A stretch of 64,000 bases of DNA from Henriciella sp. (lineage in GTDB: Bacteria > Pseudomonadota > Alphaproteobacteria > Caulobacterales > Hyphomonadaceae), in NCBI RefSeq assembly GCF_029936995.1, contig NZ_JAPYRE010000002.1:186001-250000 (forward strand), read 5' to 3'. Each line of letters begins with the position of its first letter. Position 1 is the stretch's first letter. Of this stretch, positions 28,532 through 45,255 are shown in pieces. The position numbers and the translations under genes were made by a program. Under the pieces are notes generated by a model. That model ran no database searches. It was not told the origin of the DNA and saw only the letters and a program-made list of their open reading frames with translations.

Positions 28532-29580
28532 TTATCAAGCCTGCCGCTCTGTCAGGACATCTCCGCAAACCCGATCCCGCCCTATGGTGCATGCTCGTAT
28601 TTGGCGATGATGACGGGGTCGTAAGCGATACGGCCGACAGCATCGCCAAGGCCTGGTCAGCTTCTGCAGCAGGCGGAGCGAAGGTGCTCACACTGAACGA
28701 TGACGATATCCGGCGTGAGCCTCATCTGCTAAATGAACGTATTGAGACAGGCTCTCTGCTTGGAGAGACGGATATTATCCGTGTTCGGACGTCTGGTGAA
28801 AAGATATCCAAAGCCATACTTGGCCTTGTCGAACAGGCCGACCAGTCTCAAAGCCCTTTTCAGAATCGGCTACTGATCCTCTGCAGCGGACTCAACAAAC
28901 GCTCAAAACTCCGGGCAGGTCTCGAATCCGCCCGCCTATCCGCCGCCATTCATGTCTTCGCCGACAGCGATCACTCCGTACGCGAACTGATACAGGCCCG
29001 TCTTGATACCGATGGGATTGCCATAGATCTTGATGCGCTCGACCGGTTTGCCGCAAACCTTCCCGGGCATCGAGGCCTGGCCAATCAGGAAACCGATAAA
29101 CTGGCGCTTTTTGGTCGGGGTCTCGGTCGTCCCATTTCGCTTGATGACGTAAACAGACTTTCTCTTACCGATGCCGACACCAGCCTCAGGGACATGATTC
29201 ATGCTGCGCTGGACGGTGACAGGGAGGCATGCCTGAACGAGTACCACCGCGTCTCTGAGTCCGGCACATCGGCGATCAGCATTCTGCGCCTGCTCGAACT
29301 GGAGGTTAAGCGGCTGCTTCAGGCACGTGGTCTTGCCGGTACAAGTGGAAATATCGGTATGAAACTGCGCCCGCCAGTCTGGCAATCAGAGTGGCCTGCA
29401 TTTCGCTCCCGCATGGACCGCTGGTCGGCCCCCGCCCTCAATCGTCTGCTCGCGGCGGTACACGACCATGAAATCCGTGCCAAGGAAGCCGGCAATGCTG
29501 CCGACGCGTCAGTGCGCGTGCTTCTCCTGAATGTATTGAAGTCAGCGTCTGGCCGGCCTAGGACGCGCGGCGCGCAGTAA
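28528..29580 (+). CDS. holA: DNA polymerase III delta subunit
   Basis: Clamp-loader subunit of the replicative polymerase. The 350-residue protein begins with a holA-type N-terminus (LVFGDDDGVVSD). It has the AAA+-like middle domain and a helical C-terminus (REACLNEYH, LRLLELEVKRLL). It is translationally coupled to lptE. Its last 23 bp overlap the 3' end of convergent parB. Confidence 0.92.
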   Translation: MIIKPAALSGHLRKPDPALWCMLVFGDDDGVVSDTADSIAKAWSASAAGGAKVLTLNDDDIRREPHLLNERIETGSLLGETDIIRVRTSGEKISKAILGLVEQADQSQSPFQNRLLILCSGLNKRSKLRAGLESARLSAAIHVFADSDHSVRELIQARLDTDGIAIDLDALDRFAANLPGHRGLANQETDKLALFGRGLGRPISLDDVNRLSLTDADTSLRDMIHAALDGDREACLNEYHRVSESGTSAISILRLLELEVKRLLQARGLAGTSGNIGMKLRPPVWQSEWPAFRSRMDRWSAPALNRLLAAVHDHEIRAKEAGNAADASVRVLLLNVLKSASGRPRTRGAQ

Positions 29581-30478
29581 GCCGCCTGCAAAGATCGTCT
29601 AGCTGCTCCAAATCCTTGTATTTTATACGTAATTCCCCGCCGGACGACTTGTGGCGTATATCCACATCAAGACCCAGGCTGCGCGCAAGGTCTGCCTCGA
29701 GAGCTTCTGTATCGACATCCTTTGCGCCCGCGTCCACGCGTTTTGCGATCGCATCGAGCGAGCCTTCGTCCCGCGCATTCTTGACGAGCTTTTCAACCTC
29801 GCGAACGCTCATCTGCTTCTGAACCGCCATGGACACAACGGCATCCGGGTCCGCCGCACCGAGAGCGGCCCTGGCATGGCCTGCGGTAATACGCCCTTCC
29901 CGAAGATGCGTCCGCGATGTCTCGGAAAGGTTCAACAGGCGGATTGTATTTGCGATATGCGCCCGGCTCTTGCCCACACTTTCAGCCAAGCCCTCCTGCG
30001 TCCGCCCAAAGCGCTTCATCAGCGCGCCATAAGCTTCAGCTTCCTCAATGGGGTTGAGATCCGTGCGCTGCACGTTCTCGATAATTCCGATCTCCAGCAG
30101 CTCCAGCTCGTCCAGCTCGCGGATCGTGGCCGGGATTTCCTTCAGGCCGGCCTGCTTTGCCGCCCGCCAGCGCCGTTCACCCGCAATGATCTGGTACTTG
30201 CCTTCATCCTTTGGATCAGGCCGCACAAGGATAGCCTGCAACACGCCCTTGGTGCGAATGGATTCAGCCAGCTCTTTCAGGTCAGCCTCGGCAAAATAGC
30301 GGCGCGGCTGCTGCGGATTCGGCTTTATGTTGGCGACCGGAATTGTGGACGCCTCCGCGACTGGCGGCTGCCCTTCAGACGTGTCCTGGGATGAGGAGCT
30401 TGCACCCTCGACCTCCCCGATAAGAGCAGAAAGCCCACGGCCCAGACGGCTCGGTCTGGATTTCGGATCCGAAGACAT
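29558..30478 (-). CDS. parB: Chromosome partitioning protein ParB
   Basis: CTPase that loads on parS and bridges origin DNA. The 306-residue protein has an N-terminal ParA-interaction tail (RLGRGLSALIGE) and the CTP-binding motifs AGERRWRAAKQAGL and IIENVQRTDLNP. The helix-turn-helix KSRAHIANTIRLLNLS and a C-terminal dimer domain follow. Start: ATG at 30478, four bases after GGAGG; a GTG at 30481 is possible. Five parS sites lie within 7 kb of this gene. Confidence 0.96.
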   Translation of the reverse strand: MSSDPKSRPSRLGRGLSALIGEVEGASSSSQDTSEGQPPVAEASTIPVANIKPNPQQPRRYFAEADLKELAESIRTKGVLQAILVRPDPKDEGKYQIIAGERRWRAAKQAGLKEIPATIRELDELELLEIGIIENVQRTDLNPIEEAEAYGALMKRFGRTQEGLAESVGKSRAHIANTIRLLNLSETSRTHLREGRITAGHARAALGAADPDAVVSMAVQKQMSVREVEKLVKNARDEGSLDAIAKRVDAGAKDVDTEALEADLARSLGLDVDIRHKSSGGELRIKYKDLEQLDDLCRRLTARRAS

Positions 30479-31296
30479 CACGCCTCCACCAGTCTTGCGC
30501 GCTCACGCTGGAGCATTTCAGAAGCGAGACGAATATAGGCCTCGCTTCCCGGACAACGGTAATCATACAACAGTGCCGGCTTTCCGAAGCTCGGTGCTTC
30601 TGACAGGCGGACATTGCGCGGAATAACTGTCTTGTAGACCTTTGTGCCCAGAACTTCGCGCACCTCATCAGCTACCTGGTCAGACAAGTTATTTCGCTTG
30701 TCATACATGGTGAGCACAATCCCCTGAATATCCAGGTCTGGGTTAAGGCCAGACCGGACAACCTCGACCGTCCGCAAGAGCTGGCTCAGACCCTCCAGCG
30801 CCAGGAACTCGCATTGCAGCGGAACAAGGAGTGCATCTGCGGCCGTCATCGCATTGATAGTCAGGGATGAAAGCGATGGCGGGCAATCGATAAGGATAAA
30901 GTCGTAGCGCCTGTCCGCATCTTGCGCGACCCTGGCGACATAACCACGTATAGCGTCCCGTAACCTGTATGATCTTCGAGGATCCTCGGCCAGCTCGGTC
31001 TCAACACCAGACAGGTTCTCATCGCCTGGTACAATTTCGAGACGCGGCACCAATGTCGGCAAAATTGCCTGGTCGAGCGAGACCCTGTCCACCACGACAT
31101 CATAGCTTGTCAGCTTCCGGTCAGCCCGCATGATGCCGAGACCGGTAGAGGCATTCCCCTGCGCGTCGAAATCAACGACCAGAACCCTGCGGCCAACCGC
31201 AGCCAGGGCTGTCCCGAGATTGATGGAGGTCGTCGTCTTGCCTACGCCGCCTTTCTGATTAGCCACTGCCAGAATACGGGTTCTGGAATCAGACAC
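30478..31296 (-). CDS. parA: Chromosome partitioning ATPase ParA
   Basis: Deviant Walker ATPase that moves ParB-parS complexes. KGGVGKTTT is at residues 15-23, with the signature lysine K15; DFDAQGNAS and IDCPPSLSSLT follow. 272 residues. It overlaps rsmG by 8 bp at its start and parB at its stop (TGATG). The order mnmG-rsmG-parA-parB is the standard alphaproteobacterial origin operon. Confidence 0.97.
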   Translation of the reverse strand: MSDSRTRILAVANQKGGVGKTTTSINLGTALAAVGRRVLVVDFDAQGNASTGLGIMRADRKLTSYDVVVDRVSLDQAILPTLVPRLEIVPGDENLSGVETELAEDPRRSYRLRDAIRGYVARVAQDADRRYDFILIDCPPSLSSLTINAMTAADALLVPLQCEFLALEGLSQLLRTVEVVRSGLNPDLDIQGIVLTMYDKRNNLSDQVADEVREVLGTKVYKTVIPRNVRLSEAPSFGKPALLYDYRCPGSEAYIRLASEMLQRERARLVEA

Positions 31297-31906
31297 GTTT
31301 CGCCTCCATGATCTTCAGAATGATACCGCCTTCACTGGTGAGGCTTGGAATCGCTTCATAGGCGAGAGTCCAGCATTCCTGCGCCTCCGTCAATTCATCT
31401 CGCCAGTGTTCGCCTTTGAAAAAGAGTCCCGTTGCGCCACGTGAAATCCAGCTTTCTGTATACCCGAGTAATTTCGGCAATGGCGCCAAGGCTCTGGCCG
31501 TCACGTAATCGACAGGTTTCGGCTCGATAGCTTCAACCCGTTTGTTGTGAATTGTCGCCGGCAGCCCGAGTTCCGTGACCACCGCCGCAAGGAAAGCGCA
31601 TTTCTTGCCAACAGATTCCACCATGGAAACATGCCCGTCCGCCGCACTGTTACAGGCCAGGACAAGACCCGGTAGCCCCGCGCCGGTTCCAATATCCAGA
31701 ATACGTGCATCCTGTGTGACATGCGGTATGATTTGCGCACAATCGAGCACATGGCGCGCCCAGATATGCTCCATCTCCCTGGGTCCGATCAGGTTGAGCT
31801 TGCGCCGCCAATCATCAAGCAATTCGACATAGCTCTCTATACGGCTCAGCGTTTCACGTGAAACAAAAAGATCCGATAGTCTGGCCTTGGCCTCGTTTTC
31901 CGTCAT
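31289..31906 (-). CDS. rsmG: 16S rRNA m7G527 methyltransferase
   Basis: SAM-dependent methyltransferase (GidB). The 205-residue protein has DIGTGAGLPGL (SAM loop), SVGKKCAFL and VTARALAPL. A parS site (31851-31864) lies in its N-terminal coding region and reads as VSRET. It starts two bases after the mnmG stop. Confidence 0.95.
   Translation of the reverse strand: MTENEAKARLSDLFVSRETLSRIESYVELLDDWRRKLNLIGPREMEHIWARHVLDCAQIIPHVTQDARILDIGTGAGLPGLVLACNSAADGHVSMVESVGKKCAFLAAVVTELGLPATIHNKRVEAIEPKPVDYVTARALAPLPKLLGYTESWISRGATGLFFKGEHWRDELTEAQECWTLAYEAIPSLTSEGGIILKIMEAKRV
31851..31864. other. parS site in rsmG
   Basis: GTTTCACGTGAAAC, the 14-bp parS consensus, in the 5' part of rsmG. Flanking bases are C and A, so 15 of 16 bases match the extended site. 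Coding meaning on the minus strand: VSRET. Confidence 0.93.
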
Positions 31907-31908
31907 GC

Positions 31909-33786
31909 TTAACTCGCGGCACGCTGAGGAGACTTGCGCCGCTTCACATGCGACAGCAATGACAGGAGAGCACCAGGCGTGACGCCCTCTATACGCCCGG
32001 CCTGCCCCAGTGTTGCCGGACGCACCGTTTCCAGTTTCGACCGGGCCTCATTCGACAAACTGCCAATGGCCCCGTAGTCGAGGTCGGACGGAATCTCGAG
32101 CGCTTCATCGCGGCGCAGCGCTTCAACGTCAGCCTTCTGACGCTCTAGGTAACCGGAATAGGTTGCCTCAATGACAAGCTGTGCGCGATGAGCAAACGGT
32201 ATTTTTTCCAGCTCGGGAAATGCCGCCGCCACCTGCTCGAAGGAAATATCCGGGTATGCGAGATAGTCCCAGGCGCTACGCCGTTGCCCGTCCTGATTGA
32301 CCTTCCAGCCGTGCTGGGCCGCTTCGTTCGGCGTGAGAACAAGGGTTTTCAGGCGATCACGTCCAGCTTCAAGACTTTGGTGTTTCACGTGAAACATCTC
32401 TCGCCGATCACTTCGGACCAGCCCGAGCTCAACGCCACGATAGGTCAACCGCTGATCGGCATTATCGGCGCGCAAAGCCAGCCTGTATTCCGCCCGAGAT
32501 GTGAACATCCGGTACGGTTCACTGACTCCATGCGTGACAAGGTCATCAATAAGCACGCCAATATAGGCTTCCGCCCTGTCAAATACGGCCGCTTCTTTTC
32601 CTGCAACCTTCCGCGCCGCGTTCAGTCCGGCAACGAGACCCTGCGCGCCCGCCTCCTCATACCCCGTCGTGCCATTTATCTGGCCGGCAAGGTACAGCCC
32701 GGCTAGCGCCTTTACTTCCAGCCCGTGAGACAAGGCCCGTGGGTCCACATAGTCATACTCGATTGCATATCCCGGCTGGATAATGCGAACATTTTCCAGG
32801 CCCTCAATGGTCCGGACAAAAGCTTCCTGGACCTCCACGGGTAGAGATGTCGAGATCCCATTCGGATACACCGTAGTGTCGTCAAGTCCTTCAGGCTCGA
32901 GAAATATCTGGTGCCGCGTTTTTTCGGCAAACCTGTAGACCTTGTCTTCAATTGACGGGCAATATCGCGGGCCCTTTCCCGCAATCGCGCCAGAATAGAC
33001 CGCGGACTTGTTCAGATTATCAGCAATGATTTCATGAGTGGCCGCGTTCGTGAATGTTATGCCACAGGCAAGCTGGGGCACATCGATCTGCGAGTTCATG
33101 AAAGAGAATGGCACAGGCTGCTCATCTGCAGGCTGCATTTCCAGCCTGTCCCAGTCAATCGTGCTGCCGTCCAGCCGTGCTGGCGTACCCGTCTTTAACC
33201 GGCCCATGGGAAGATTGAGACTATAAAGCCGGTCCGATAGGCCAATTGCTGGCGCCTCGCCGATACGGCCTGCCTCGATACGTTCTTCACCCCGGTGGAT
33301 AATACCTTTCAGGAAAGTTCCGGTCGTAATCACTACGGCTTGCGCCCTGTAAGCACTCCCGGAAAGCCCGACCACGCCTGCCGTTCTCTCCTTCTCGACG
33401 ATAAGGTCTTCGACACCATCCTCGATCAGGCTCAGATTTTCATAACCGGATAGCTCAGCCTGCATCGCTTCACGATACAGCCTGCGGTCAATCTGTGCGC
33501 GCGGGCCACGTACGGCCGGGCCTTTGGAACGGTTGAGAAGTCTGAACTGTATGCCTGACTTATCAGCCATACGCCCCATCAGGCCATCCAGCGCGTCAAT
33601 TTCACGTACCAGATGTCCCTTGCCGAGCCCCCCGATGGCCGGATTGCACGACATCTCGCCAATCGTGGCAAGTTTATGTGTAATCAGCGCAGTCTTTGCC
33701 CCTGTGCGCGCGGCCGCCGCCGCTGCCTCGCACCCGGCATGACCGCCGCCCACGACAATAACATCGAAATCAAATGCACCCGGCAT
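31909..33786 (-). CDS. mnmG: tRNA uridine-5-carboxymethylaminomethyl modification enzyme MnmG
   Basis: FAD enzyme (GidA) that with MnmE modifies the wobble uridine of several tRNAs. The FAD-binding [14 protein letters not shown] is near the N-terminus; [13 protein letters not shown] and GTGTPARL-type signatures follow. 625 residues. ATG at 33786 has GGAG upstream; a codon six residues earlier is also open. A parS site sits in its 3' half. Confidence 0.97.
32381..32396. other. parS site in mnmG
   Basis: TGTTTCACGTGAAACA, a perfect 16-bp match to the parS consensus, inside mnmG. It is read as FHVKH. Confidence 0.96.
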
Positions 33787-33862
33787 TTGCGCTCCGTCCT
33801 TCACTCATCTGGATGAAAGCGTGCCTATACACTATCTGCCCGTTAAAACACAGGGGCCGGAT

Positions 33863-35188
33863 TCATTTGCCGATACAGAAGGAACTGAAGACGGCACCCA
33901 GTATTTCTTCCACACCGATCTCACCGACCAGCGTGGACAACTGGCGCGCAGCGAGCCGTACGTCTTCGGCGACAAGCTCAGCACCACCGCCGCGCGCCTG
34001 GAGGTCGAGCGCCTGTTTCACGTGAAACAGTGCGTTTTCTAGAGCCAGCCTATGGCGGCGCCGCGTAATCATGGGCGCCCCTGCCCTGCCGGCTTTTTTA
34101 CGGATGACCTCTGCTATCCGCTCTTCAAGAACTTCAAAGCCGTCTCCCGTCGCCGCGGAAATAACGAGAACACCGCTTGCAATATCATGACTCGTCGACA
34201 GGTCTGATTTGTTCAGGACACAGATATCCTCATCCGAGACACCCGAAAAATCCCCTTCGGTATCGCTCGACCGCAGCTGGATCCGCAAATCTGCAGACGC
34301 CGCTCGTGCGTGGGCCCGCTTGACCCCTTCTGCCTCAATTGCGTCGCCCGCCTCGCGCAATCCAGCTGTATCGGCCACCCACGCGATCTGCCCCCCGATC
34401 TTCAAGCGCACTTCGACAATGTCGCGCGTGGTTCCGGGAATATCTGAAACGATTGCCGCCTCGCGCCGCGCCAGTCGATTTAGTACTGACGACTTGCCCG
34501 CATTCGGGGGTCCGACGATCGCAATGTGAAACCCTTCACGTATGCGCTCACCGATCTCGTCATCAGCCAAAGCCGCTTCGAGGCTATCTGAAATCACAAG
34601 AAGCTGCTGGCGTACCGGATGATCCGTATCGTCCGGCGCATCTTCTTCATCCGGAAAATCGATACTGACCTCAAGCAAGGCAAGCGCCTCTACCAGGCCG
34701 GACCGCCATTTCGCATACTGTCCTGACAAGCGTCCAGCCAGTTGGTCCAGCGCTAGGGACTTCTGTGCCCGGGTTTCCGCGTCGATCAGATCGGCAACGC
34801 CTTCTGCTTCCACCAGGTCCAACCGGCTATTTTCGAAGGCCCGGCGCGTGAACTCCCCCGGTTCAGCCAGTCGCGTCGATTCAAATCCACAAATCGTATC
34901 CAGCGCGTGCTCTATAACGGCCGCCCCGCCGTGAAGGTACAGCTCCACCGTATCTTCACCGGTGTAGGAATTTGGCCCCGGCATAAAAATCGCGAGGCCT
35001 TCATCGATTGTTTCACGTGAAACGTCGAGAAATCTGCCAAATGTGGCGTGCCGTGGTTTCGGCACCCCTCCTTCGAGCATCGAACCGCAGATGTCGCGCA
35101 CCTGGCTCCCGCTAATGCGGACAATCGCAATAGCTGACGGCGGCAGCCCGGAGGCAAGCGCGCAGATGGTATCGCGCGCGCCGTCCAT
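33863..35188 (-). CDS. mnmE: tRNA modification GTPase MnmE
   Basis: GTPase partner of MnmG. N-terminal formyl-THF-binding domain, helical domain with inserted G domain (GPPNAGKSSVLN, DIPGTTRD, DTAGLRE, NKSD), and the family-final CIGK tetrapeptide that carries the essential cysteine. 441 residues. Two parS sites lie in this gene, one at each end. Confidence 0.97.
   Translation of the reverse strand: MDGARDTICALASGLPPSAIAIVRISGSQVRDICGSMLEGGVPKPRHATFGRFLDVSRETIDEGLAIFMPGPNSYTGEDTVELYLHGGAAVIEHALDTICGFESTRLAEPGEFTRRAFENSRLDLVEAEGVADLIDAETRAQKSLALDQLAGRLSGQYAKWRSGLVEALALLEVSIDFPDEEDAPDDTDHPVRQQLLVISDSLEAALADDEIGERIREGFHIAIVGPPNAGKSSVLNRLARREAAIVSDIPGTTRDIVEVRLKIGGQIAWVADTAGLREAGDAIEAEGVKRAHARAASADLRIQLRSSDTEGDFSGVSDEDICVLNKSDLSTSHDIASGVLVISAATGDGFEVLEERIAEVIRKKAGRAGAPMITRRRHRLALENALFHVKQALDLQARGGGAELVAEDVRLAARQLSTLVGEIGVEEILGAVFSSFCIGK
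34014..34029. other. parS site in 3' part of mnmE
   Basis: TGTTTCACGTGAAACA, a perfect 16-bp parS, extended to an 18-bp palindrome by flanking C and G. It is read as FHVKQ. Confidence 0.96.
35010..35023. other. parS site in 5' part of mnmE
   Basis: GTTTCACGTGAAAC with flanking T and G, matching 15 of 16 bases of the extended site. It is read as VSRET. Confidence 0.93.
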
Positions 35189-35191
35189 AGC

Positions 35192-36493
35192 CTAGTTCTT
35201 CATTGCCTCGAAGAACTCGTCATTTGTTTTTGTCTGACGGAGTTTATCGAGCAGGAAGTCGACCGCATCCGATGTCCCCATCGGGTTGAGGATACGCCGC
35301 AGGATATAGATCTTCTGCAACTGTTCCTTCGGCGTGATGAGTTCCTCTTTCCGCGTACCGGACTTCATGATGTCGATTGCCGGGAACACGCGCTTGTCTG
35401 CAATCTTGCGGTCCAGGACGATTTCGGAGTTACCCGTGCCCTTGAATTCCTCGAAGATCACTTCGTCCATACGTGAACCGGTTTCGATCAGCGCTGTCGC
35501 AATAATGGTGAGCGATCCACCGTTCTCGATATTGCGTGCTGCACCAAAGAAGCGTTTCGGACGTTGCAGCGCGTTCGCATCGACACCGCCTGTCAGCACC
35601 TTGCCGGAGCTTGGCACTGTTGTGTTGTAAGCGCGGCCAAGGCGCGTAATCGAGTCGAGCAGGATCACGACATCACGGCCATGCTCTGCAAGCCGTTTGG
35701 CTTTTTCGATAACCATCTCAGCAACCGACACGTGACGAGTCGCCGGTTCATCGAAGGTCGAGGAGATCACCTCGCCTTTCACCGAACGCTTCATGTCGGT
35801 GACTTCTTCCGGGCGCTCATCAATCAGAAGAACGATCAGGTAGCATTCCGGATGATTTTCCTCGATGGATGCAGCAATATTCTGAAGCAGAACCGTCTTA
35901 CCCGTCCGCGGAGGCGCAACAATCAGGGCGCGCTGTCCCTTGCCGATGGGCGAAACAATGTCGATGACACGACCTGAACGATCCTTCTTCGTCGGATCAT
36001 TCGTTTCCATATGCAGGCGCTGTTCCGGATAAAGGGGAACCAGGTTGTCGAAATGGACTTTCTGGCGCGCCTTGTCCGGGGCTTCGAAGTTCACGCCATT
36101 CACACTCATCAGCGCGAAGTACCGTTCGCCTTCGCCCGGCTCCTTGATTGGCCCCTCGACCGTATCACCGGTTTTCAGGCCAGCCTGCTTGAGCAGCTTC
36201 GGATTGACGTAAATATCGTCCGGGCCCGGCAGGTAGTTTGATTCCGGCGAGCGCATGAAGCCGAAGCCGTCATTCAGGACTTCAAGGACACCGCGCCCGA
36301 TGATCGTGATGTCACGCTCTGCCAGCTCACGAAGGATTGCGTAGAGCATGTCCTGCGTCCGAAGCGAAGATGCGTTTTCAACTTCGAGGCTTTCCGCATA
36401 AGCGAGAAGTTCGGTCGGACTCTTGGCTTTCAGGTCACGAAGATAGACGTGACGATCGGTGCCGTTTTCGGATTCAATAACAATGTCGGACAT
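35192..36493 (-). CDS. rho: Transcription termination factor Rho
   Basis: Hexameric RNA helicase that ends transcription. The 433-residue protein has the N-terminal helical and cold-shock-like RNA-binding domains ([15 protein letters not shown]). The RecA-type ATPase has Walker [14 protein letters not shown] and Q-loop region. There is no large insertion between the domains. A 7-bp hairpin stands in its leader (separate entry). mnmE starts 4 bp after its stop. Confidence 0.98.
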
Positions 36494-36514
36494 GGGAGCT
36501 CGGGATAGACTGAA

Positions 36515-36531
36515 CCCGTCATCGTGACGGG
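36515..36531 (-). promoter_or_regulatory. Hairpin in the rho leader
   Basis: CCCGTCA, three bases, TGACGGG: a perfect 7-bp stem with a 3-base loop, 22 bp upstream of the rho start, in the 140-bp gap to hemJ. No U-run follows, so it is not an intrinsic terminator. rho genes are often autoregulated by attenuation, so a leader role is possible. Nothing else is seen in this gap. Confidence 0.4.
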
Positions 36532-36633
36532 AGATAATATCTGGGAGATTCGCGTCAGCCCAGGACGGGCCGGGAATTTATGCGCCAGCTTATGCGCTTC
36601 AACAGCCGATCCGTCAAGACATGTTCACCAGCG

Positions 36634-37059
36634 TTAGAAAGGACGCACAATGACCATGACCACAATCACGATCAACAGAACGAATGGAAGCTCGTTCATA
36701 AGCTTTAACCGTCCGGCAGACACCTTTTCGCCCCGGTCGATTTTCTTGCCAAGGCTTATGAAATAGCCGTGTAGCCCGGTCAGGATCAGGACAAAGAGGA
36801 GTTTCACGTGAAACCATCCGGCCGACAGGAGTGCCGTATTCGACACCACCAGTGAAATTCCCAGAACCCAGACCAGGATTATGGAAGGATTGAGGATGAT
36901 CTTGCGCAGCTTGTTGGACGCGCTTTTCATGGCCTCGAAGAGCTCTTCTCCCGGCGCCGATTTCAGCTGATGCAGCTTGTAACGCGGAAAGACAAGCATC
37001 CCGGCCATGAACGCGACAACAAAGATGAGATGGAAAGCTATAAGCCAGTTATACAACAC
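36634..37059 (-). CDS. hemJ: Protoporphyrinogen IX oxidase HemJ
   Basis: Membrane haem enzyme. The 141-residue protein has four predicted transmembrane helices. It carries the family His (WLIAFHLIF, H10) and the conserved GWFHVKLL segment in the third helix. It is adjacent to hemE, in keeping with a role in haem synthesis. The fifth parS site falls on the FHVK part of the gene, in frame. Confidence 0.88.
   Translation of the reverse strand: MLYNWLIAFHLIFVVAFMAGMLVFPRYKLHQLKSAPGEELFEAMKSASNKLRKIILNPSIILVWVLGISLVVSNTALLSAGWFHVKLLFVLILTGLHGYFISLGKKIDRGEKVSAGRLKLMNELPFVLLIVIVVMVIVRPF
36801..36814. other. parS site in hemJ
   Basis: GTTTCACGTGAAAC, the 14-bp core, with flanking A and C. It is the parS site nearest the origin, 1.3 kb from the hemE-ppsR gap. 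It is read as FHVK. Confidence 0.92.
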
Positions 37060-37080
37060 GATAGCGCCTCCCTGTTCGGC

Positions 37081-38130
37081 CTATTTGTCGTGTGCCCGAT
37101 TGCGCACAATGTCGACGACACGCTCAACATGCTTGATCGGCGTTGTTGGCAATACGCCGTGGCCGAGATTGAAGATATGCGGCCGGCCCCGATAGGCTTC
37201 GATGATCTCGATGACACGCCGCTCCATTTTTTCACCGCCCGCCATGAGCAGAAGTGGATCAAGCTGCCCCTGAACAGGGAAATCACTTGGCAGTTCCCGG
37301 TTCACGAATGCCGATGAGATAGCCGTATCCAGGCCGACAGCATTGACCCCTGTCAGGTCTGTATATGCCGGTAGCATTGTTCCCGCACCACGTGGAAAAC
37401 CGATGATCGGCACATCGACACCGAGTTCCCGCAACCGCAGAACAAGCTTGCGATTGGGCTGTACGACGATCTGTTCGAAAACATCCTCGGCAAGCCCTTC
37501 CGCCCAGGACTCGAACATCATCAGCGCATCCGCCCCTGCTTCGACCTGGGCAGCCATGTAATGCGCCGTAGCCTCCACGAGGTCATCCAGAAGCAGGTCG
37601 AGACCCGCCGGGTTCTGATGTGCCCAGAGCCGTGCCTGTGATTTGTCCGTGCCTCCGCGGCCTTCAATGGCATAGAGCGCAACCGTCCAGGGTGCCCCGG
37701 CAAAGCCGATCAGTGTCTTGCCGGGCTCGAGCTTGGATTTGACCCTCGAGACTGTCTCGTAAACCGGGGACAGTCTCTCCTTGACCTGTTCGACAGGAAC
37801 CTTGTTGAGGCGCCCTTTTTCCTCGACGGTTTCAACAATTGGTCCGACACCCTTTTCGAACCGCACACCCTGGCCGAGCGCATCAAGGATCAGCAGGATA
37901 TCTGCGAACAGGATGACACCATCCATATCGTAGCGCTCGATCGGCTGAAGTGTCGCCTCAGCTGCCAGAGATGGGCTGTAACAGAAGTCCAGGAAATTCT
38001 TGGCCCTGGACCGAAGCTCCATATATTCAGGCAAATGCCTGCCCGCCTGACGCATCATCCAGATGGGAACAGGGTCCCGCCTTTGGCCATTCAGCACATC
38101 AAGGAGTGGTTTTAGCGCGGTGTTAGCCAT
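37081..38130 (-). CDS. hemE: Uroporphyrinogen decarboxylase
   Basis: Converts uroporphyrinogen III to coproporphyrinogen III. 349 residues from the ATG at 38130. Motifs: PIWMMRQAGRHLPEY near the N-terminus, the active-site Asp in LFADIL, GFAGAPWTVALYA, and the C-terminal FNLGHGVLP. The ATG at 38130 is chosen because GAAGGGAG stands six bases upstream; an ATG nine codons earlier lacks one. It borders the origin, as in Caulobacter. Confidence 0.96.
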   Translation of the reverse strand: MANTALKPLLDVLNGQRRDPVPIWMMRQAGRHLPEYMELRSRAKNFLDFCYSPSLAAEATLQPIERYDMDGVILFADILLILDALGQGVRFEKGVGPIVETVEEKGRLNKVPVEQVKERLSPVYETVSRVKSKLEPGKTLIGFAGAPWTVALYAIEGRGGTDKSQARLWAHQNPAGLDLLLDDLVEATAHYMAAQVEAGADALMMFESWAEGLAEDVFEQIVVQPNRKLVLRLRELGVDVPIIGFPRGAGTMLPAYTDLTGVNAVGLDTAISSAFVNRELPSDFPVQGQLDPLLLMAGGEKMERRVIEIIEAYRGRPHIFNLGHGVLPTTPIKHVERVVDIVRNRAHDK

Positions 38131-38260
38131 CTGGCTCCCTTCAAACTTTTCAATCAACCTTGGTTCTTATCATTACTAGTCACTGGAAATCGTGGACAAA
38201 GCGTCTCAGGACAAGTTTTCAGCAGGATTTCCACAGCGAGTCCAAGCCGGTGTACAGATT

Positions 38261-38276
38261 TTAAGGTTTCATTAAC
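38261..38276. promoter_or_regulatory. CtrA box 1 in origin
   Basis: TTAA, seven bases (GGTTTCA), TTAAC: exact match to the CtrA consensus TTAA-N7-TTAAC, within the AT-rich part of the origin. Confidence 0.87.
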
Positions 38277-38291
38277 ATTCTGGAATCGCGA

Positions 38292-38307
38292 TTAAAATTG
38301 CGTTAAC
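38292..38307. promoter_or_regulatory. CtrA box 2 in origin
   Basis: TTAA, seven bases (AATTGCG), TTAAC: a second exact consensus site, starting 31 bp after the first (about three helical turns, so the same face of the DNA). Confidence 0.87.
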
Positions 38308-38490
38308 CATTTTACTTGTCCGCCGGTCTGGAACAGGCCGGGAATCATGGCTGTCAGATTCATCCGGGTGTGGATTTCTGGTGAATGAATCCGGGGAAAC
38401 AAATCAACCCACAAGGTGTCCACAGGGGTTGTCGATTTCTTCAGGACACTGCACTTTCCTGCAATCCAGATTGTGCGGTCCGGGGGTCAG

Positions 38491-39324
38491 ATGCGTCCAA
38501 GCATATACTTCAACGTTCACCTCGTCTCCGATTCGACCGGTGAGACGCTGAATGCCGTCATGCGCGCCGCCGCGGCGCAGTTCGAGAACGTTACTCCTCT
38601 GGAGCACAACTATTACCTGGTCCGCTCGGAGCGCCAGCTGGAGCGCGTGATGCGCGATATCGAAGCTGCGCCTGGCGTGGTCTGGTTTACAATTTCCGAT
38701 GAAGCGCTTCGCATAAAGCTCGAAGAGTTCTGCCGGGCCCACCAGATACCCGTACTTGCTGTGCTAGACGCATCTATCCACCTATTGAGCCGACATCTCG
38801 GTGTTGCTGCAACCGATCGTGTTGCTGGCCAGCATGCGCTTAATCAGGAATATTTCGAACGGATCGAGGCGATCAATTACGCACTGTCCCATGACGATGG
38901 GCAGAATGTGGAGGGCCTGGCCCACGCCGACGTGATCCTTGTCGGGGTCAGCCGCACCTCCAAGACGCCAACCTGTGTGTATCTTGCCAATCGTGGCATA
39001 AAGGCGGGTAATATTCCCCTCGTGCCGGGTGTTCCGCCGCCTGCCGTGCTTGATAACCTCGACCCGGAGACGGGACCGCTGGTCATCGGCCTGAAAATCG
39101 GCGTTGAGCGGCTTGTGCAGATCCGCAGTCAGAGACTTATCGCACTCAATGAGACCTCGGCGACGGACTATACTGACGAAGAGGCCGTCCGTTCCGAAGT
39201 GACCCAAGCCAGCCGTCTCTTCCAACGCAAGAAATGGACGATCATTGATGTCTCGCGGCGTAGCGTCGAGGAAACTGCAGCTGCGATCCTGAACAAGTAT
39301 AATGAACGCAAGGGGCATGGATGA
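38491..39324 (+). CDS. ppsR: PPDK/PEP-synthase regulatory protein (DUF299)
   Basis: Bifunctional kinase/phosphorylase that controls pyruvate phosphate dikinase or PEP synthase by reversible threonine phosphorylation. Motifs: HLVSDSTGET at the N-terminus and the P-loop-like GVSRTSKTPT. 277 residues from the ATG at 38491, after GGGGGTC. The frame is open 75 bp further into the origin, but that start has no support. It is the first gene right of the origin. Overlap with maf is ATGA. Confidence 0.94.
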   Translation: MRPSIYFNVHLVSDSTGETLNAVMRAAAAQFENVTPLEHNYYLVRSERQLERVMRDIEAAPGVVWFTISDEALRIKLEEFCRAHQIPVLAVLDASIHLLSRHLGVAATDRVAGQHALNQEYFERIEAINYALSHDDGQNVEGLAHADVILVGVSRTSKTPTCVYLANRGIKAGNIPLVPGVPPPAVLDNLDPETGPLVIGLKIGVERLVQIRSQRLIALNETSATDYTDEEAVRSEVTQASRLFQRKKWTIIDVSRRSVEETAAAILNKYNERKGHG

Positions 39325-39917
39325 GCCACGACGTCATACTCGCTTCCGGTAGCGCGAGCCGCCGCTGCCTGCTGGCCGCCGCTGGCGTGGAAGCGGCCAA
39401 TGTAAAACCAAATGTTGACGAGGATGCAGCCAAGGCATCTTTCCGGGCGAGCGGCATGCGTGTTTCCGATCAGGCCATGCAGCTGGCTGAGCTGAAAGCA
39501 GTCAAGGTCTCGCGGAATACAGGCGGTCTCGTCATTGGTGGCGACCAGATGCTGAACCTCGATGGCGAAGCGCTCGACAAACCAAGGGACATGGACGAGG
39601 CGGCCAGTCATCTGCGCCGTTTTTCCGGCAAGCCTCACAAGCTGGAGACGGCGATCGTGATCGCCGAGAATGGTGAGCCTGTCTGGCGCTTTCTCACGAC
39701 ACCGAAACTCACCGTGCGACCGTTGACCGATGACTTCATCACGACCTATCTCGAGGCGGCCGGTCCGGACATCCTGAACACTGTTGGCGCCTACCAGCTC
39801 GAAGGGCTTGGCGCACAGCTTTTCAGCCGCATCGAGGGCGACTATTTCTCCATCCTTGGCCTGCCCTTGCTCCCGCTGCTGGACTATTTGCGCACACGTG
39901 GCGTACTGAACGCATGA
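39321..39917 (+). CDS. maf: Maf-like nucleoside triphosphate pyrophosphatase
   Basis: Small house-cleaning pyrophosphatase for altered nucleotides. It has ILASGSASRRCLL (substrate loop) and VIGGDQMLNLDG, and ends in GLPLLPLLDYLR. 198 residues. It overlaps ppsR and aroE by ATGA on each side, so it belongs to a coupled operon starting at ppsR. Confidence 0.93.
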   Translation: MSHDVILASGSASRRCLLAAAGVEAANVKPNVDEDAAKASFRASGMRVSDQAMQLAELKAVKVSRNTGGLVIGGDQMLNLDGEALDKPRDMDEAASHLRRFSGKPHKLETAIVIAENGEPVWRFLTTPKLTVRPLTDDFITTYLEAAGPDILNTVGAYQLEGLGAQLFSRIEGDYFSILGLPLLPLLDYLRTRGVLNA

Positions 39918-40738
39918 TGGACCGTCTTGCTGTCATAGGAGACCCGGTGGGTCACTCCCTTTCCCCGCAGATCCATATGACATGGATCGACGGCCTGGGA
40001 ATGGATGCCTCATATGAATCCATCCGGGTTCCGGCTGGAGAAACAGCAGACGCGCTCGAGCGGTTTGCTCAGAACAGTTTCCGTGGCCTGAACGTGACCC
40101 TGCCGCACAAGCAGGCCGTTGTTGAAAGCGCCAGCGACCTGTCGCCTGCAGTTAAGGTTATCGGCGCAGCCAACACGCTCAGCCGCAAACCTGATGGCAC
40201 CTGGAGGGCCGACAATACAGATGCGCCGGGCCTGATGTCAGCCCTGTCCCGTATTAATGTACGGGATGTCGCCGGAAAGACCGTTCTGGTTCTCGGTGCT
40301 GGCGGGGCTGCCCGCGCAGCGCTCTATGCCCTGGATGAAGCTGGCGCAGGGCTGATCGTTCTCAACCGCACTGTGGAAAAGGCGGAAAAAGTCATCGACT
40401 CCTGCTGCCAGCGCAGCCACGAATATGGCTCGCTTGCGGACATGGAACAGTACGCCCGGAAGGCGGACCTCATCATTAACACGACCAGCGCTGGTTATAC
40501 CGGCGAACATTTCCACCTCCCGCAAGGCGATGGCAGGCTTTTTTTTGACATCAGCTATGGCAAGCCAGCGGCTGCCCAGCTTGACCACGCAAGCGAGTGT
40601 GGCTGGCGGGCTGAGGACGGTCTGGGCATGCTGGTCTGTCAGGCGGCTGAGAGTTTCCGCATCTGGTTTGGCGGCGAGCTTCCCGATATTGAGCCCGCCC
40701 TCGCCGTCTGCCGCGAAACACTGAAGTCCTACCAATGA
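39914..40738 (+). CDS. aroE: Shikimate dehydrogenase
   Basis: NADPH-dependent reduction of 3-dehydroshikimate in aromatic synthesis. Motifs: [14 protein letters not shown], the catalytic Lys in [14 protein letters not shown] with the catalytic Asp, and the cofactor loop [11 protein letters not shown]. 274 residues. The start overlaps maf; ATG at 39914 is followed by a second ATG, either of which could be used. An 8-T run (near 40,539-40,546) lies in the coding sequence. It overlaps coaE by ATGA. Confidence 0.95.
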
Positions 40739-41334
40739 TCATACTCGGCCTCACCGGCTCCATCGGCATGGGCAAGAGCGCAACGGCCAAAATGTTCGCC
40801 GAGGCCGGCATACCCGTTTACGATGCAGATGCCGCCGTTCACTCGATTTATGAAAAAGGCGGGCTTGCCGTCACGCCGCTGGGCGAACGCTTTCCCGGCG
40901 TTGTGGTCGATGGCGCTATCAGCCGCCAGCGCCTGCGCGACATCGTTCTGGAAGACCCGGATGCCATGAAGGACCTTGAAGGCATAGTGCATCCGCTTGT
41001 CGGGGAGACACAGATACGCTTCCGGCAGGAGGCCAAGGCTTCAGGCGCGCGTCTTGCCGTGCTTGATATCCCCCTGCTCTACGAGACGGGCGGCGACAAG
41101 CGGTGCGACTATGTAGCCGTCGTTACTGCGCCGGAAGAGGCCCAGCGAGAGCGCGTCATGTCGCGCCAGGAAATGTCGGAAGCCGATTTCGAGAAGATCC
41201 TCGACAAACAGGTCCCTGACGCAGACAAGCGCGCCAGGGCCGATTTCATCATCTCTACAGCCTTCGGTTTCGAATTCGCGCGAACACATGTAAACGCGAT
41301 CATAGACCTGCTCACAGGGATGGATGAGGCCTGA
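40735..41334 (+). CDS. coaE: Dephospho-CoA kinase
   Basis: Last step of coenzyme A synthesis. The 199-residue protein has the P-loop GSIGMGKS (residues 8-15), YDADAAVH, and [10 protein letters not shown]. It is coupled to aroE (ATGA) and followed by dnaQ after 2 bp. Confidence 0.95.
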
Positions 41335-41336
41335 AC

Positions 41337-42041
41337 ATGACGAGCCCGCTGCGCGAGATCGCCTTCGATACAGAAACGACCGGTCTCGACTGGTCAGGTG
41401 ACGACCGTATCATCGAACTGGGTGCGGTAGAGCTCATCAATCACGTCGCTACAGGGCGAACCTTTCATGAGCGGATCAATCCCCGCCGCGCGGTGTCAGC
41501 CAAGACGATCGAGATTACCGGCCTGACCGATGACATGCTGGCCGATAAACCCTTCTTCGAGGACCCGAGCATCGTCGATGCGCTGCTCGATTTCATCGGG
41601 GACGCGCCGGTCGTGGCCCATAATGCCAGTTTTGACCGTGGCTTCCTGAACGCAGAGCTTGCTCGCTGCAACAAGCCGGAAATACCGCTGGAGCAGTGGG
41701 TCGACACACTGGATATTGCCAAGAAGCGCTATCCCGGTGCGCCAGCCTCACTCGATGCGCTGTGCAAGCGCTTCGATATCGGGTTGGAAGCGCGCACACT
41801 GCACGGCGCACTCCTGGACAGCCAGCTCCTCGCGGAAGTGTATCTCGAATTGCGCGGTGGCCGTGCCAGAAGCTTCGATTTTTCCGATGGGGTGTCAGCC
41901 GAGGATGCTGCCCGTTTCAGGGAGGCCAGGCAGCGCCCGACGCCTCTGCCCTCATTGCTGACGGCAAGCGAAGCCGAAGCGCATTCGGCTTTTATCGAAG
42001 AGCTTGGCGGAGAGTCGATCTGGGCGCAGCTTAAGGCCTGA
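41337..42041 (+). CDS. dnaQ: DNA polymerase III epsilon subunit
   Basis: Proofreading 3'-5' exonuclease. The DEDDh residues are visible: FDTETTGL, AHNASFDRGFL, and HGALLDSQLLAEVY. 234 residues, followed by a C-terminal segment that would bind the alpha subunit. It is the last gene of the rightward operon and convergent with secB (17-bp gap). Confidence 0.95.
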   Translation: MTSPLREIAFDTETTGLDWSGDDRIIELGAVELINHVATGRTFHERINPRRAVSAKTIEITGLTDDMLADKPFFEDPSIVDALLDFIGDAPVVAHNASFDRGFLNAELARCNKPEIPLEQWVDTLDIAKKRYPGAPASLDALCKRFDIGLEARTLHGALLDSQLLAEVYLELRGGRARSFDFSDGVSAEDAARFREARQRPTPLPSLLTASEAEAHSAFIEELGGESIWAQLKA

Positions 42042-42058
42042 GACCCAGCCGGACAGGA

Positions 42059-42607
42059 CTAGGCCTGTCCGTTTCCGTTTTCAGGGGTTTCGCCCGGCGC
42101 GGCGTGCTGGGCGCCATCCGGCTTGGCCTGCCCTGCGGCCTGTGCCGCCCGGCCCTGTTCTTTCTGCTGGCGATAAAGTGCAGTGAAGTCGACCGGGTCA
42201 ATCCGGAGCGCCGGGAAACCACCTTCCTGGGTGAGGTTCGCGACAATGCTGCGCGCGAACGGGAAAAGAAGGCGCGGGCATTCGATAAGAAGCATTGCTT
42301 CCATATCCGATTGGGAAGCGCCTTGAATCTGGAAAAGACCAGCATATTGCAGTTCCACGAGGAAGAGTGCGGTCTGCTGTGTGCCAGCGCGCGCATTCAT
42401 CTTCAGGACAACTTCATAGACGCCTTCAGACTGGTTCTGCGGAATGGCCTGAACGTCTATGCCAAGATCCACGTTTGGCTGTTCATTGACGCGCGCGCCA
42501 GGGTTTTCGAAGGACAGGTCCTTGATATACTGGTTCATCACACGCAGGCTGGGGCCCGTAGGCTGCTGCGGCTGGGGTGCGGCGTCAGACGTGTCGCTCA
42601 TTGGCAT
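42059..42607 (-). CDS. secB: Protein-export chaperone SecB
   Basis: Cytosolic holdase that delivers precursors to SecA. The body has QYIKDLSFENPGA, NVDLGIDVQAI and the CPRLLFPFARSIV motif. An acidic/Pro-Gln-rich tail follows. ATG at 42607 is chosen because AGAGGA stands upstream; the frame is open to 42664, but those residues look non-native. It is divergent from the Tim44-domain gene across about 125 bp. Confidence 0.94.
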   Translation of the reverse strand: MPMSDTSDAAPQPQQPTGPSLRVMNQYIKDLSFENPGARVNEQPNVDLGIDVQAIPQNQSEGVYEVVLKMNARAGTQQTALFLVELQYAGLFQIQGASQSDMEAMLLIECPRLLFPFARSIVANLTQEGGFPALRIDPVDFTALYRQQKEQGRAAQAAGQAKPDGAQHAAPGETPENGNGQA

Positions 42608-42731
42608 GAAATCCTCTACAGACAGGCTCTGGCGCCTACCATGTGCCCTCTTCCTGCGCAACACTGGGTGGCACAGCTGTAAACTCTCCTATATTGGGGA
42701 AAGGACCACACAGGATTCTCTTGGAGCCCGC

Positions 42732-43340
42732 ATGTCATCCTCCTTCATAGAACTGGCCCTGCTGATCGCCATTGCGGCCTTTATCGGCTGGCGTCTCTAT
42801 TCGACGCTGGGCGGCGATGAGGGCCCGCCAGAAGGACGCGCCCGTTCTGAGCCGCAGCGTCCCCGCCCCGTGAATGGCGACAGGGAGGCGCGCCAGCCCG
42901 AGTCCGGCCTTCGTCCGGCCTTTACCGGCCCAGCCGCTGCTGGGCTTGAGACCATTCATGGTGCCGATCCGGACTTCAATCCACGCGAATTTCTGCAAGG
43001 CGCTCGCGGCGCTTACGAGATGCTGGCCAATGCCTTTGCCCGCGGTGACCGGGAGACGCTAAAGCCCTGGCTCGACACGGATGTGTATGAAGCCTGGGAT
43101 AGCGCCATCGCCGAGCGGGAAAAGACCGGCGCGGAAGCGCCTCAGCTTCTGCGCATCTGCCACAGTGAAATCGACGATGCGAGCCTCGATGGAAGCATCG
43201 CCCGGGTGACGGTGCGCTTTGAAGCAGAGCTTGGCGAAGGTGACATGACCCGGCGTTCGGAAGAATACTGGACCTTCATGCGTGATACGACGTCGGATGA
43301 TCCCAACTGGCTGCTCGATGACGTCGATACCGCTGAATAG
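42732..43340 (+). CDS. timA: Tim44-domain protein (TimA-like)
   Basis: A 202-residue protein with one N-terminal membrane helix (FIELALLIAIAAFIGW), a Pro/Arg-rich linker and a C-terminal Tim44-like domain (FLQGARGAYEMLANAFARGD, LKPWLDTDVYEAW, TVRFEAELGEG). Related alphaproteobacterial proteins are described as inner-membrane relatives of mitochondrial Tim44. It sits between secB and mltA, the conserved order. The name follows the described TimA; function in transport is inferred. Confidence 0.82.
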   Translation: MSSSFIELALLIAIAAFIGWRLYSTLGGDEGPPEGRARSEPQRPRPVNGDREARQPESGLRPAFTGPAAAGLETIHGADPDFNPREFLQGARGAYEMLANAFARGDRETLKPWLDTDVYEAWDSAIAEREKTGAEAPQLLRICHSEIDDASLDGSIARVTVRFEAELGEGDMTRRSEEYWTFMRDTTSDDPNWLLDDVDTAE

Positions 43341-43425
43341 TTTATGTGCGGCGTCTGGCGGGCCGACTGCCACTGACAGAAATTTCATATTGTGAGCTGG
43401 CGAGAAGCCCGGCAATCTTGCGCTC

Positions 43426-44703
43426 ATGCGTGCGTCCGTTGTCCTTCCCGCCATCCTTCTCCTGCTGATTTCTGGCTGCGCGTCTGCGCCCGAGCCGGAG
43501 CATGATGCTGGCCCCGTGCCGCCATCCGGGCAGCCAGAACAGTCTCAACCCGGCACGCCCGACACGGATACCCGCCGTGCCCGTCCCAAGATGCCCGTCC
43601 CGATGGCACCACCCGTGCCCGCAGCGTTTGAGGCCCTGCCCGGCTGGCAGGAGGCCGACCTGATGCCAGGCGTGTCGGCACTCAAGCAGAGTTGTGAGGC
43701 GTTCAGCGCGAAGGCGGCGGATTCCTACCTTTCGGACTCCGCGCGTTGGGCAGGCCAGGTGCGTGACTGGACACCAGCGTGCGCGGCGATGGGCGTCATT
43801 ATTAACGAAAGCAGCGCCCGCACCGTATTGCAGGCGCTTTTCAAACCGGTCGAGATCGTGAGCACGGACGGAGCATCACGTTTTACCGGCTACTTCGAGC
43901 CGGTCTACGAAGCACGCTATGCCCCCGAGTACCCCTATACAGAACCGGTCCCTGCCCTGCCCGGCGATCTTGTCTCCGAGGGGGGTAACAATGTCTACCA
44001 GCGCTTGTCCAACGGCTCGCGTAGACCCTACCCGGCGCGAGAGCAGATCACGAATAATGGTGTACGCCCACTCGCCTATGCTCACCCGGCGGATGTTTTC
44101 TTTCTCCAGATACAAGGGTCTGGAAAACTCGCTTTCCCCGATGGCCGTGTCATGAAGGCAGCCTTTGCCGCGCATAATGGCCGCCCGTTCAAATCGACTG
44201 CGAACTGGCTCTACAGGCGGGGCTGGATCGGCCGCGGCGAACGTTCGATGCAAGGCATCCGCGCCTGGATGGACCGGGCCAGTGAGGCCCAGCGCCGCGA
44301 AGCCATGAATGCAAACCCGCGCTTTGTCTTCTTCACGCTTGAGCCGCGCGAGGATGATGTCAGCGGGCCCCGGGGCGCGATGAGTGTGCCGCTGACACCG
44401 TTGGGCTCTGTCGCTGTCGATCGGGCCTATCACCCGCTGGGCGTACCTGTTTTCGTGAAAACCACCGCACCCGGCCTGGGGGGAGACTGGTCTGGCCTGC
44501 TCAATGCGCAGGATACCGGGGGCGCAATTACTGGGCCCGTGCGCGGTGACATCTATTTCGGAACCGGTGAAGAAGCCGGCGAACGCGCTGGTACGATGAA
44601 CGCACCGGGCCGGCTCTGGGTACTGCTCCCGACGCGGCTTGCCGACAGGCTTGCCAGCGACGAGATCTATGCCGGGCTTGGAGCAGACAACTCGGCGCCC
44701 TAG
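43426..44703 (+). CDS. mltA: Membrane-bound lytic murein transglycosylase A
   Basis: Lipoprotein (lipobox ISGC, Cys18) that cleaves peptidoglycan glycan strands to 1,6-anhydro products. The MltA domain contains RFTGYFEPVYEA. The C-terminal 3D domain has NAQDTGGAITGPVRGDIYFGTG with the catalytic Asp. 425 residues. It follows the Tim44-domain gene by 85 bp and precedes the Smr gene by 9 bp. Confidence 0.93.
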   Translation: MRASVVLPAILLLLISGCASAPEPEHDAGPVPPSGQPEQSQPGTPDTDTRRARPKMPVPMAPPVPAAFEALPGWQEADLMPGVSALKQSCEAFSAKAADSYLSDSARWAGQVRDWTPACAAMGVIINESSARTVLQALFKPVEIVSTDGASRFTGYFEPVYEARYAPEYPYTEPVPALPGDLVSEGGNNVYQRLSNGSRRPYPAREQITNNGVRPLAYAHPADVFFLQIQGSGKLAFPDGRVMKAAFAAHNGRPFKSTANWLYRRGWIGRGERSMQGIRAWMDRASEAQRREAMNANPRFVFFTLEPREDDVSGPRGAMSVPLTPLGSVAVDRAYHPLGVPVFVKTTAPGLGGDWSGLLNAQDTGGAITGPVRGDIYFGTGEEAGERAGTMNAPGRLWVLLPTRLADRLASDEIYAGLGADNSAP

Positions 44704-44712
44704 ATTGCGGCC

Positions 44713-45255
44713 ATGCCGAAGCGGGACCTTACGCCTGAAGAACAGAAAGCCTGGGACCAGGTGCGCAAGTCCGTGCGCCCGATTGGTTCGGCTGCGCGCG
44801 TCGCGAAACCAAAGCCAGAGACGGCCGGTGACCTGATCTCTGAGCAGGACATCCCTGCCCCGATGGCGAGCCCGTCCGGCAAGCCCGCGAAACCGGCTAG
44901 AAATACACCGCCGTCACACCGCTCCCATACCTTTGTCAGACCACAGGACAGGGGCCATGACAGGAAAGTCCGGCGCGGAAAGATCGAAATATCTGCCCGC
45001 TTTGACCTGCACGGTCATACCCAGCAGTCGGCCTGGTCTGCCCTGCCGGCCTTCCTCATGCGTGAGCAGGCCCGCGGCGCACGCTGTGTGATCGTGATTA
45101 CCGGCAAGGGCAAGTTCGGCGAGGGGGTGCTGAAACGGAATTTCCTGCACTGGCTTGAGATGCCGCAGGCCCGTAGTCTTGTTTCCGGTTATGCCCGCGC
45201 ACATCCCCGGCATGGCGGCGCCGGGGCTTTCTACGTCTTTCTGAAGCGCCGCTAG
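44713..45255 (+). CDS. Smr-domain protein
   Basis: A 180-residue protein with an N-terminal basic, disordered part and a C-terminal Smr domain (FDLHGHTQQSA, VITGKGKFGEGVL, HGGAGAFYVFLKR). Small MutS-related proteins act as nucleases, often on branched DNA or RNA. It is close behind mltA and is convergent with hisE (4-bp overlap). Confidence 0.87.
   Translation: MPKRDLTPEEQKAWDQVRKSVRPIGSAARVAKPKPETAGDLISEQDIPAPMASPSGKPAKPARNTPPSHRSHTFVRPQDRGHDRKVRRGKIEISARFDLHGHTQQSAWSALPAFLMREQARGARCVIVITGKGKFGEGVLKRNFLHWLEMPQARSLVSGYARAHPRHGGAGAFYVFLKRR

Follow-up and report, generated by a model that had tools for sequence, protein, structure and literature searches.

A probable hemE-ppsR replication origin in Henriciella with two conserved, predicted CtrA sites between groups of DnaA-like boxes

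Introduction

Control of chromosomal replication origins by CtrA is already established as a kind of regulation, known mainly from Caulobacter, and the interest of further cases lies in their layout, which varies between genera. In the origin of Caulobacter crescentus, Cori, CtrA sites and DnaA boxes overlap or sit close to each other (PMC4468827, PMC4285127), and Cori has been tabulated at 404 bp (PMC1914354). Within the family Hyphomonadaceae, CtrA chromatin immunoprecipitation sequencing (ChIP-seq) data were found for Hyphomonas neptunium only, where they show CtrA bound beside the origin and yield TTAA-N7-TTAAC as its consensus (PMC7200025). Here, we describe the gap between hemE and ppsR in a Henriciella species of the same family, whose PpsR is 85-92% identical to the PpsR of its closest named relatives, all Henriciella. 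The gap lies in a 64-kb window (the whole stretch of DNA analysed, contig positions 186001-250000) of a 3.40-Mb draft genome in 20 contigs. It is very probably the chromosomal replication origin and carries two conserved CtrA-type motifs. The main elements, in window coordinates, are the following.

38131..38490, no strand: probable chromosomal replication origin, the 360-bp hemE-ppsR gap (nearby skew change, synteny, near-constant gap length in relatives, and marker frequency in H. neptunium)
38261..38276, plus strand: predicted CtrA site 1, TTAAGGTTTCATTAAC, exact TTAA-N7-TTAAC; at most one mismatch in 28/29 genus members, exact in 12
38292..38307, plus strand: predicted CtrA site 2, TTAAAATTGCGTTAAC, exact TTAA-N7-TTAAC; at most one mismatch in 25/29 genus members, exact in 16

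Two conserved CtrA motifs

The two motifs, which an earlier note on this DNA had singled out as perfect CtrA boxes, were confirmed by a pattern scan: they start at 38261 and 38292, lie in tandem 31 bp apart, and are the sole exact TTAAN7TTAAC matches in the window. Over both strands of the whole genome, the pattern yields 11 matches, i.e., 8 positions including these two, with no other adjacent pair, while the backwards pattern, taken as a control, yields 4. None of 20,000 dinucleotide shuffles of the gap contained two exact motifs, and two motifs with at most one mismatch were found in 0.72% of them.

Conservation was followed in the hemE-ppsR gaps of relatives. Of 105 genomes in the family, 103 yielded PpsR, and 96 complete gaps were analysed; the seven left out are G066, whose gap was read as 766 bp, three fragments (G099, G101, and G102), and three gaps cut at a record end (G041, G071, and G090), these last still carrying CtrA-like sites. 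Across the 96 gaps, a scan for TTAA-Nk-TTAA gives 90 matches at k=7 (shuffle mean 0.51 for the exact motif), against 0-9 for the other values of k up to 15 and 2-18 for k=16-20, the latter excess being expected from the distance that separates neighbouring CtrA sites. An exact site is present in 74/96 gaps, at least one site with at most one mismatch in 92/96, and at least two such sites in 74/96 (shuffle mean 1.9). Within the 29 genus members, both sites are exact in five, and the next best aligned window matches in three members only. The half-site columns hold 1.62 and 1.63 bits of information, compared with 0.92 and 0.72 for the spacers and a gap median of 0.68.

The earlier note had also placed the motifs in an AT-rich region of the gap, which is borne out by the GC content of the 30-bp bins that contain them (0.27 and 0.40, versus 0.47 for the gap and 0.60 for the window). 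This position would suit motifs that had arisen by chance in AT-rich sequence, or that belonged to an unwinding element, instead of CtrA sites. Such an origin for them is nonetheless extremely improbable: the peak at k=7 is sharp, replacing TTAA by any of seven other AT tetramer pairs lowers the N7 count from 90 to 0-9, and the half-sites stay while the spacers drift. Chance AT-rich matching was accordingly rejected on the shuffles and on the k=7 peak in the 96 family gaps. As judged from sequence conservation, the motifs are real, conserved CtrA-type sites, and we infer that CtrA very likely binds both in this species.

Spacing between the two sites is 31 bp in all 25 genus gaps that have both, so that the three-turn phasing stressed in the earlier note holds within the genus. 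It does not extend to other genera of the family (designated g1 to g10), where spacing is mostly 32-34 bp in g4 (perhaps Hyphomonas), 36 bp in g2, 36-37 bp in g9, 23 or 35 bp in g10, 23 bp in g3, and 28 bp in g7, some g4 gaps retaining one site only; as a functional rule, three-turn phasing was thus rejected beyond the genus, given spacings of 23-37 bp. Even in the genus alignment, whose outer flanks vary more than its core, the 31-bp segment between the two CtrA sites (27/29 members) is not special, since other core segments are equally rigid, with box-to-box distances of 36 bp in 28/29 and 47 bp in 29/29. Of note, in the seven g7 gaps (L122-L127 and L143) the pair lies beside hemE, at gap positions 29-37 and 57-65 and 28 bp apart; it is a relocated arrangement, in place of a central one.

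Exact CtrA motifs were also seen far from the origin. One (L005, C3:517124) is 77 bp upstream of the gene of a PAS-domain protein, which is possibly DivL-like; another (L010, C9:326440) precedes a DUF1465 gene by about 400 bp.

The hemE-ppsR gap as the probable replication origin

The gap is framed by a leftward hemE and a rightward ppsR, a flanking pair (hemE and COG1806) like that of Cori. The features that bear on its identification as an origin are listed here.

37081..38130, minus strand: hemE, above the TIGR01464 cut-off, ATG ending at 38130
38491..39324, plus strand: ppsR (COG1806/DUF299), above the NF003742 cut-off and below that of the narrower PpsR model NF049928, ATG starting at 38491
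29558..30481, minus strand: parB, passing TIGR00180
30478..31296, minus strand: gene of a ParA-type ATPase, below the cut-off of every model
31850, 32381, 34014, 35009, and 36800 (span 31850..36815), no strand: five parS-like sites, each with 0-2 mismatches and the GTTTCACGTGAAAC core intact

The sign of the GC skew switches close to the gap. To its left, 20-kb stretches of the contig have skews of -0.027 to -0.058, negative in 7/7, the seventh (contig positions 206001-226000) including the gap close to its right end; to its right, they range from +0.025 to +0.054, positive in 8/8. A leftover 4-kb piece (246001-250000) has a skew of -0.018. A similar picture comes from G017, a relative assembled as a single contig and sampled in 40 stretches of 20 kb, where skew is negative in 14/16 stretches below 1.14 Mb, positive in 17/21 from 1.16 to 2.72 Mb, and negative in 3/3 from 2.80 Mb. 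The sign thus switches at about 1.14-1.18 Mb, with ppsR at 1.18 Mb, and switches back at 2.72-2.80 Mb, with the antipode of ppsR at 2.79 Mb.

Partitioning genes lie close by. The five parS-like sites (five with at most three mismatches, versus 0.14 expected) are located 1.3-6.3 kb from the hemE start, between the ParA gene and hemE, and all fall within open reading frames (ORFs), namely rsmG, mnmG, mnmE (two sites), and the hemJ-like gene. The gene order leftward from hemE is HemJ-like, rho, mnmE, mnmG, rsmG, ParA-type ATPase, and parB, with the HemJ and ParA-type proteins scoring below the cut-offs of their models. In H. neptunium, two parS sites are reported, and marker frequency peaks close to hemE, although neither GC skew nor dnaA nor the DnaA sites provided a clear answer there (PMC6650430). 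Gap length varies little among relatives, being 344-364 bp in g1, g2, g4, g6, g7, and g9, and 360-418 bp in g3, g5, g8, and g10. Together, the nearby skew change, the parB gene and parS-like sites, synteny, and the H. neptunium marker frequency indicate that the hemE-ppsR gap is very probably the chromosomal replication origin.

DnaA-like boxes, AT-rich element and GANTC sites

Like Cori, the gap combines several weak DnaA boxes with an AT-rich element, as recognized from motif and conservation.

38166..38178, no strand: conserved AT-rich element adjoining hemE, CTTATCATTACTA (CTTAT.AtTAttA in a 74-sequence family alignment), candidate unwinding element and/or part of a hemE promoter
38191..38199, minus strand: DnaA-like box TTGTCCACG, GTGGA core, position-conserved
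38227..38235, plus strand: DnaA-like box ATTTCCACA, the best in the gap, one mismatch to TTWTNCACA, TCCACA position-conserved
38330..38335, no strand: GGAACA, conserved in the alignments, possibly a weak minus-strand DnaA site
38369..38377, minus strand: DnaA-like box AAATCCACA, TGTG core conserved
38405..38413, plus strand: degenerate DnaA-like box CAACCCACA, TTATCCACA in some relatives, from the alignments
38416..38424, plus strand: DnaA-like box GTGTCCACA, inside the conserved block TCCACAGGG.TTGTC, strongly conserved in the genus alignment
38238, 38283, 38342, 38357, and 38387 (38238..38391), no strand: five GANTC (CcrM methylation) sites, enriched over shuffles

The gap has no perfect TTWTNCACA, and its other boxes with a CAC core carry two or three mismatches, so that the degenerate boxes of the earlier note (six or seven of nine bases) are about right for this gap. 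They are not a fixed feature: a perfect TTWTNCACA is present in 9/29 genus and 24/96 family members, numbers that leave degeneracy unsupported as an evolved trait. For IHF, whose site in Cori overlaps a central CtrA site, the gap gives only matches with two mismatches to the consensus.

The two CtrA sites fall between a left group of boxes (38191 and 38227) and a right group (38369, 38405, and 38416). This arrangement bears on the classical Caulobacter mechanism, in which bound CtrA directly keeps DnaA off the weak boxes that overlap or adjoin its sites, as described for Cori, where both G-boxes lie near or overlap CtrA sites (PMC4468827, PMC4285127). The weakness of the boxes in this gap fits such exclusion, and the earlier note had expected CtrA to compete easily with DnaA. 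Proximity, i.e., a box within 6 bp of a CtrA site, was counted under three definitions of a box: at most two mismatches and a CAC core (A), an end in CCACA (B), or at most one mismatch with G allowed as the second base (C); six Caulobacter-type gaps served as the control. Definitions A, B, and C respectively place a box near 4, 0, and 7 of the 28 exact genus sites, 3, 1, and 1 of 36 in g4, and 3, 0, and 2 of 14 in g10, against 10, 9, and 9 of the 19 control sites, while true overlap is found for 2, 0, and 0 of the 28 genus sites and 8, 0, and 3 of the 19 control sites, some of the loose control boxes sharing letters with a CtrA half-site. Neither of the two sites studied here has a CCACA box within 6 bp. 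By comparison, the control gap L202 contains the reviewed Cori IHF/CtrA sequence TAACGCTCTGTT together with a TGATCCACA box. Definition C also puts 15/59 genus sites with at most one mismatch within 6 bp of a box. Counting under three definitions weakens the claim of non-overlap. Nevertheless, the association of the motifs with recognisable DnaA boxes is looser than it is at Caulobacter-type origins, with low counts in g4 and g10 under every definition; simple competition for boxes is hence not favoured, and we regard direct exclusion as rather unlikely here.

GANTC sites are enriched in the gap, with five against a shuffle mean of 1.75 (2% of shuffles reach five), as they are in the genus (151 versus 49 in shuffles) and the family (624 versus 169). 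In addition, neighbouring GAGTC and GATTC, overlapping or adjacent, occur in 49/96 family gaps by a loose pattern and in 36/96 as GAGTCNGATTC; of this pair, the present gap keeps the second alone (38357, in 38351-38361).

How CtrA might act at the origin

The genome encodes several regulators relevant to such control. It has both ctrA (NF045991, 402.8 bits versus a cut-off of 350) and chpT (PF10090, above cut-off) of the CtrA phosphorelay, as well as gcrA and a ccrM-like methylase gene with a RAMA domain (600.5 bits, below the 830 cut-off of the Caulobacter-type model). A search of the PDB with CtrA at an E-value of 1e-60 returned no match and is uninformative. The dnaA gene is on a different contig from the origin. 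DnaA-type matches at C10:24306-24509 (L269) and C17:264271-264429 (L270) correspond to dnaA and to a second small ORF (148 aa), in which a DnaA C-terminal DNA-binding domain occurs by itself.

The DNA itself shows the two sites and how well they are conserved, the fixed spacing of the core, a skew change close by, and the regulator genes. From there, we infer a negative effect of CtrA on initiation, which is likely by analogy with Caulobacter, and hypothesize that it operates as a clamp instead of through overlap with DnaA boxes. DnaA would bind the left group of boxes, beside the AT-rich element near hemE, as well as the right group, and phosphorylated CtrA (CtrA~P) would bind both of the central tandem sites. 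Through occupancy or stiffening of the intervening DNA, CtrA~P could hinder the DnaA assembly or DNA bend by which the two groups are joined. The origin would then be off when CtrA~P is high, in G1/swarmer-like cells or under stress, and would be released once CtrA is dephosphorylated or degraded. Taken as a whole, this explanation, an origin in the hemE-ppsR gap silenced by CtrA~P at two central sites between DnaA-box groups, appears to us fairly probable.

Several observations weigh against it. Firstly, cumulative skew across the window bottoms out near 46-48 kb, which is 8-10 kb beyond the gap towards ppsR; skew is near zero from window position 38000 to 48000 and turns positive only after these 10 kb or so. 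In G017, the stretch directly on the ppsR side is already at +0.010, a similar ppsR-side shift. Because the minimum is displaced in this way, skew backs the neighbourhood of the origin, not the exact gap, and the Cori-like origin proposed in the earlier note is supported by the nearby sign change, the parB and parS-like sites, synteny, and the H. neptunium marker frequency, with a skew minimum that is off by those 8-10 kb. Secondly, the recognisable pair is absent from 4/29 genus members, and several genera of the family have no sites (the single g5 gap, the single g8 gap, and 2/3 g3 gaps) or, in g6, one weak site. Thirdly, very weak DnaA sites escape motif recognition, and the 7/28 obtained under definition C make hidden proximity possible. 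Finally, when the affinity of CtrA for each of the five Caulobacter origin sites was reduced, the cell cycle was only mildly perturbed in constant laboratory culture (PMC4468827).

A further possibility is that the CtrA sites are promoter elements for hemE, ppsR, or an origin small RNA (cf. Caulobacter CcnA), replication being affected indirectly. This would agree with H. neptunium, where 211/222 CtrA sites are intergenic (PMC7200025). However, no E. coli-type sigma-70 promoter was found in 38050-38560, in a search that took in no other promoter types, no Rfam match in 37000-39400, and, by eye, no conserved -10-like block at promoter distance past either site. Within the genus, moreover, the pair does not shift with respect to the DnaA-like boxes, and we consider a purely promoter-based role unlikely. 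No terminator was found in the gap.

Variation across the order

Gaps of other families of the same order (f2 to f5) and of other alphaproteobacteria were scored for CtrA sites in excess of shuffles (p<0.02 without correction, taking whichever of two tests did better). The f2-f4 genomes were hand-picked among the best PpsR matches listed and f5 comprises the best 20 of 26, so that these are not random samples; from f2, 3/16 loci are excluded, two of them lacking hemE within range and one truncated at the record start. Sites beyond shuffles were found in 77/96 Hyphomonadaceae gaps, 11/13 in f2, 5/15 in f3, 3/8 in f4, and 9/20 in f5, as well as in 2/6 Robiginitomaculum gaps and 1/13 of those of other named alphaproteobacteria. 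In f5 (L238-L257), 11/20 gaps have CtrA-like TTAA motifs directly beside hemE (positions up to 37), which perhaps belong to the hemE promoter or to another CtrA layout.

Site position within the gap differs among groups, which suggests turnover. A HemE tree (152 rows, quick method) implies at least 21 presence/absence changes and 27 layout changes, a hint of turnover only, given noisy state calls, a single partial protein, and 44/148 weak inner branches. In line with this, a review considers it probable that marine caulobacters came independently to use CtrA at their origins (PMC4468827). A broader reading, which we advance tentatively and consider possible more than probable, is that CtrA gating of origins has been repeatedly rebuilt in Caulobacterales: most Hyphomonadaceae would have a central clamp between two DnaA-box groups, g7 a pair beside hemE, and Caulobacter another layout, others having lost it. 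Selection would then have acted on the access of CtrA to the origin, not on geometry, with CtrA blocking group joining or a bend, not competing for boxes.

These data support extending CtrA control of origins to most of the Hyphomonadaceae. They also provide about 100 natural variants, mostly of near-equal gap length and with similarly placed DnaA-like boxes, in which CtrA sites shift or vanish, and which make it directly testable whether CtrA can silence an origin without being placed on DnaA boxes.

Comparison with known systems

Within the full texts searched, nothing on Henriciella with CtrA was found, and on Hyphomonadaceae with CtrA and replication origin only one paper, about flagellar promoters. 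Among the nearest described cases is H. neptunium, of the same family, which shares an origin near hemE (PMC6650430) and the same CtrA consensus (PMC7200025). Predicted CtrA sites at a hemE-linked origin are also known in Rickettsia and most Wolbachia (PMC1914354), and origin CtrA sites are claimed for marine caulobacters (PMC4468827); in both cases, the number and placement of the sites differ from those seen here.

The comparison with the Caulobacter origin, which the earlier note had called for, comes out as a likeness in parts. Cori (hemE-CC_0001) resembles the Henriciella gap in its flanking genes, AT-rich element, weak DnaA boxes, TTAA-N7-TTAA sites, and parS within a few kb, and the Caulobacter control genome likewise has the GcrA, RAMA, and ChpT families. 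The six Caulobacter-type control gaps measure 514-533 bp (by start-codon extrapolation). Where the two part is in the number and placement of the CtrA sites: Cori has five, and two G-boxes that are both near or overlapping CtrA sites (PMC4468827), whereas the Henriciella gap has two conserved sites, in tandem in the middle of its 360 bp and mostly off recognisable DnaA boxes.
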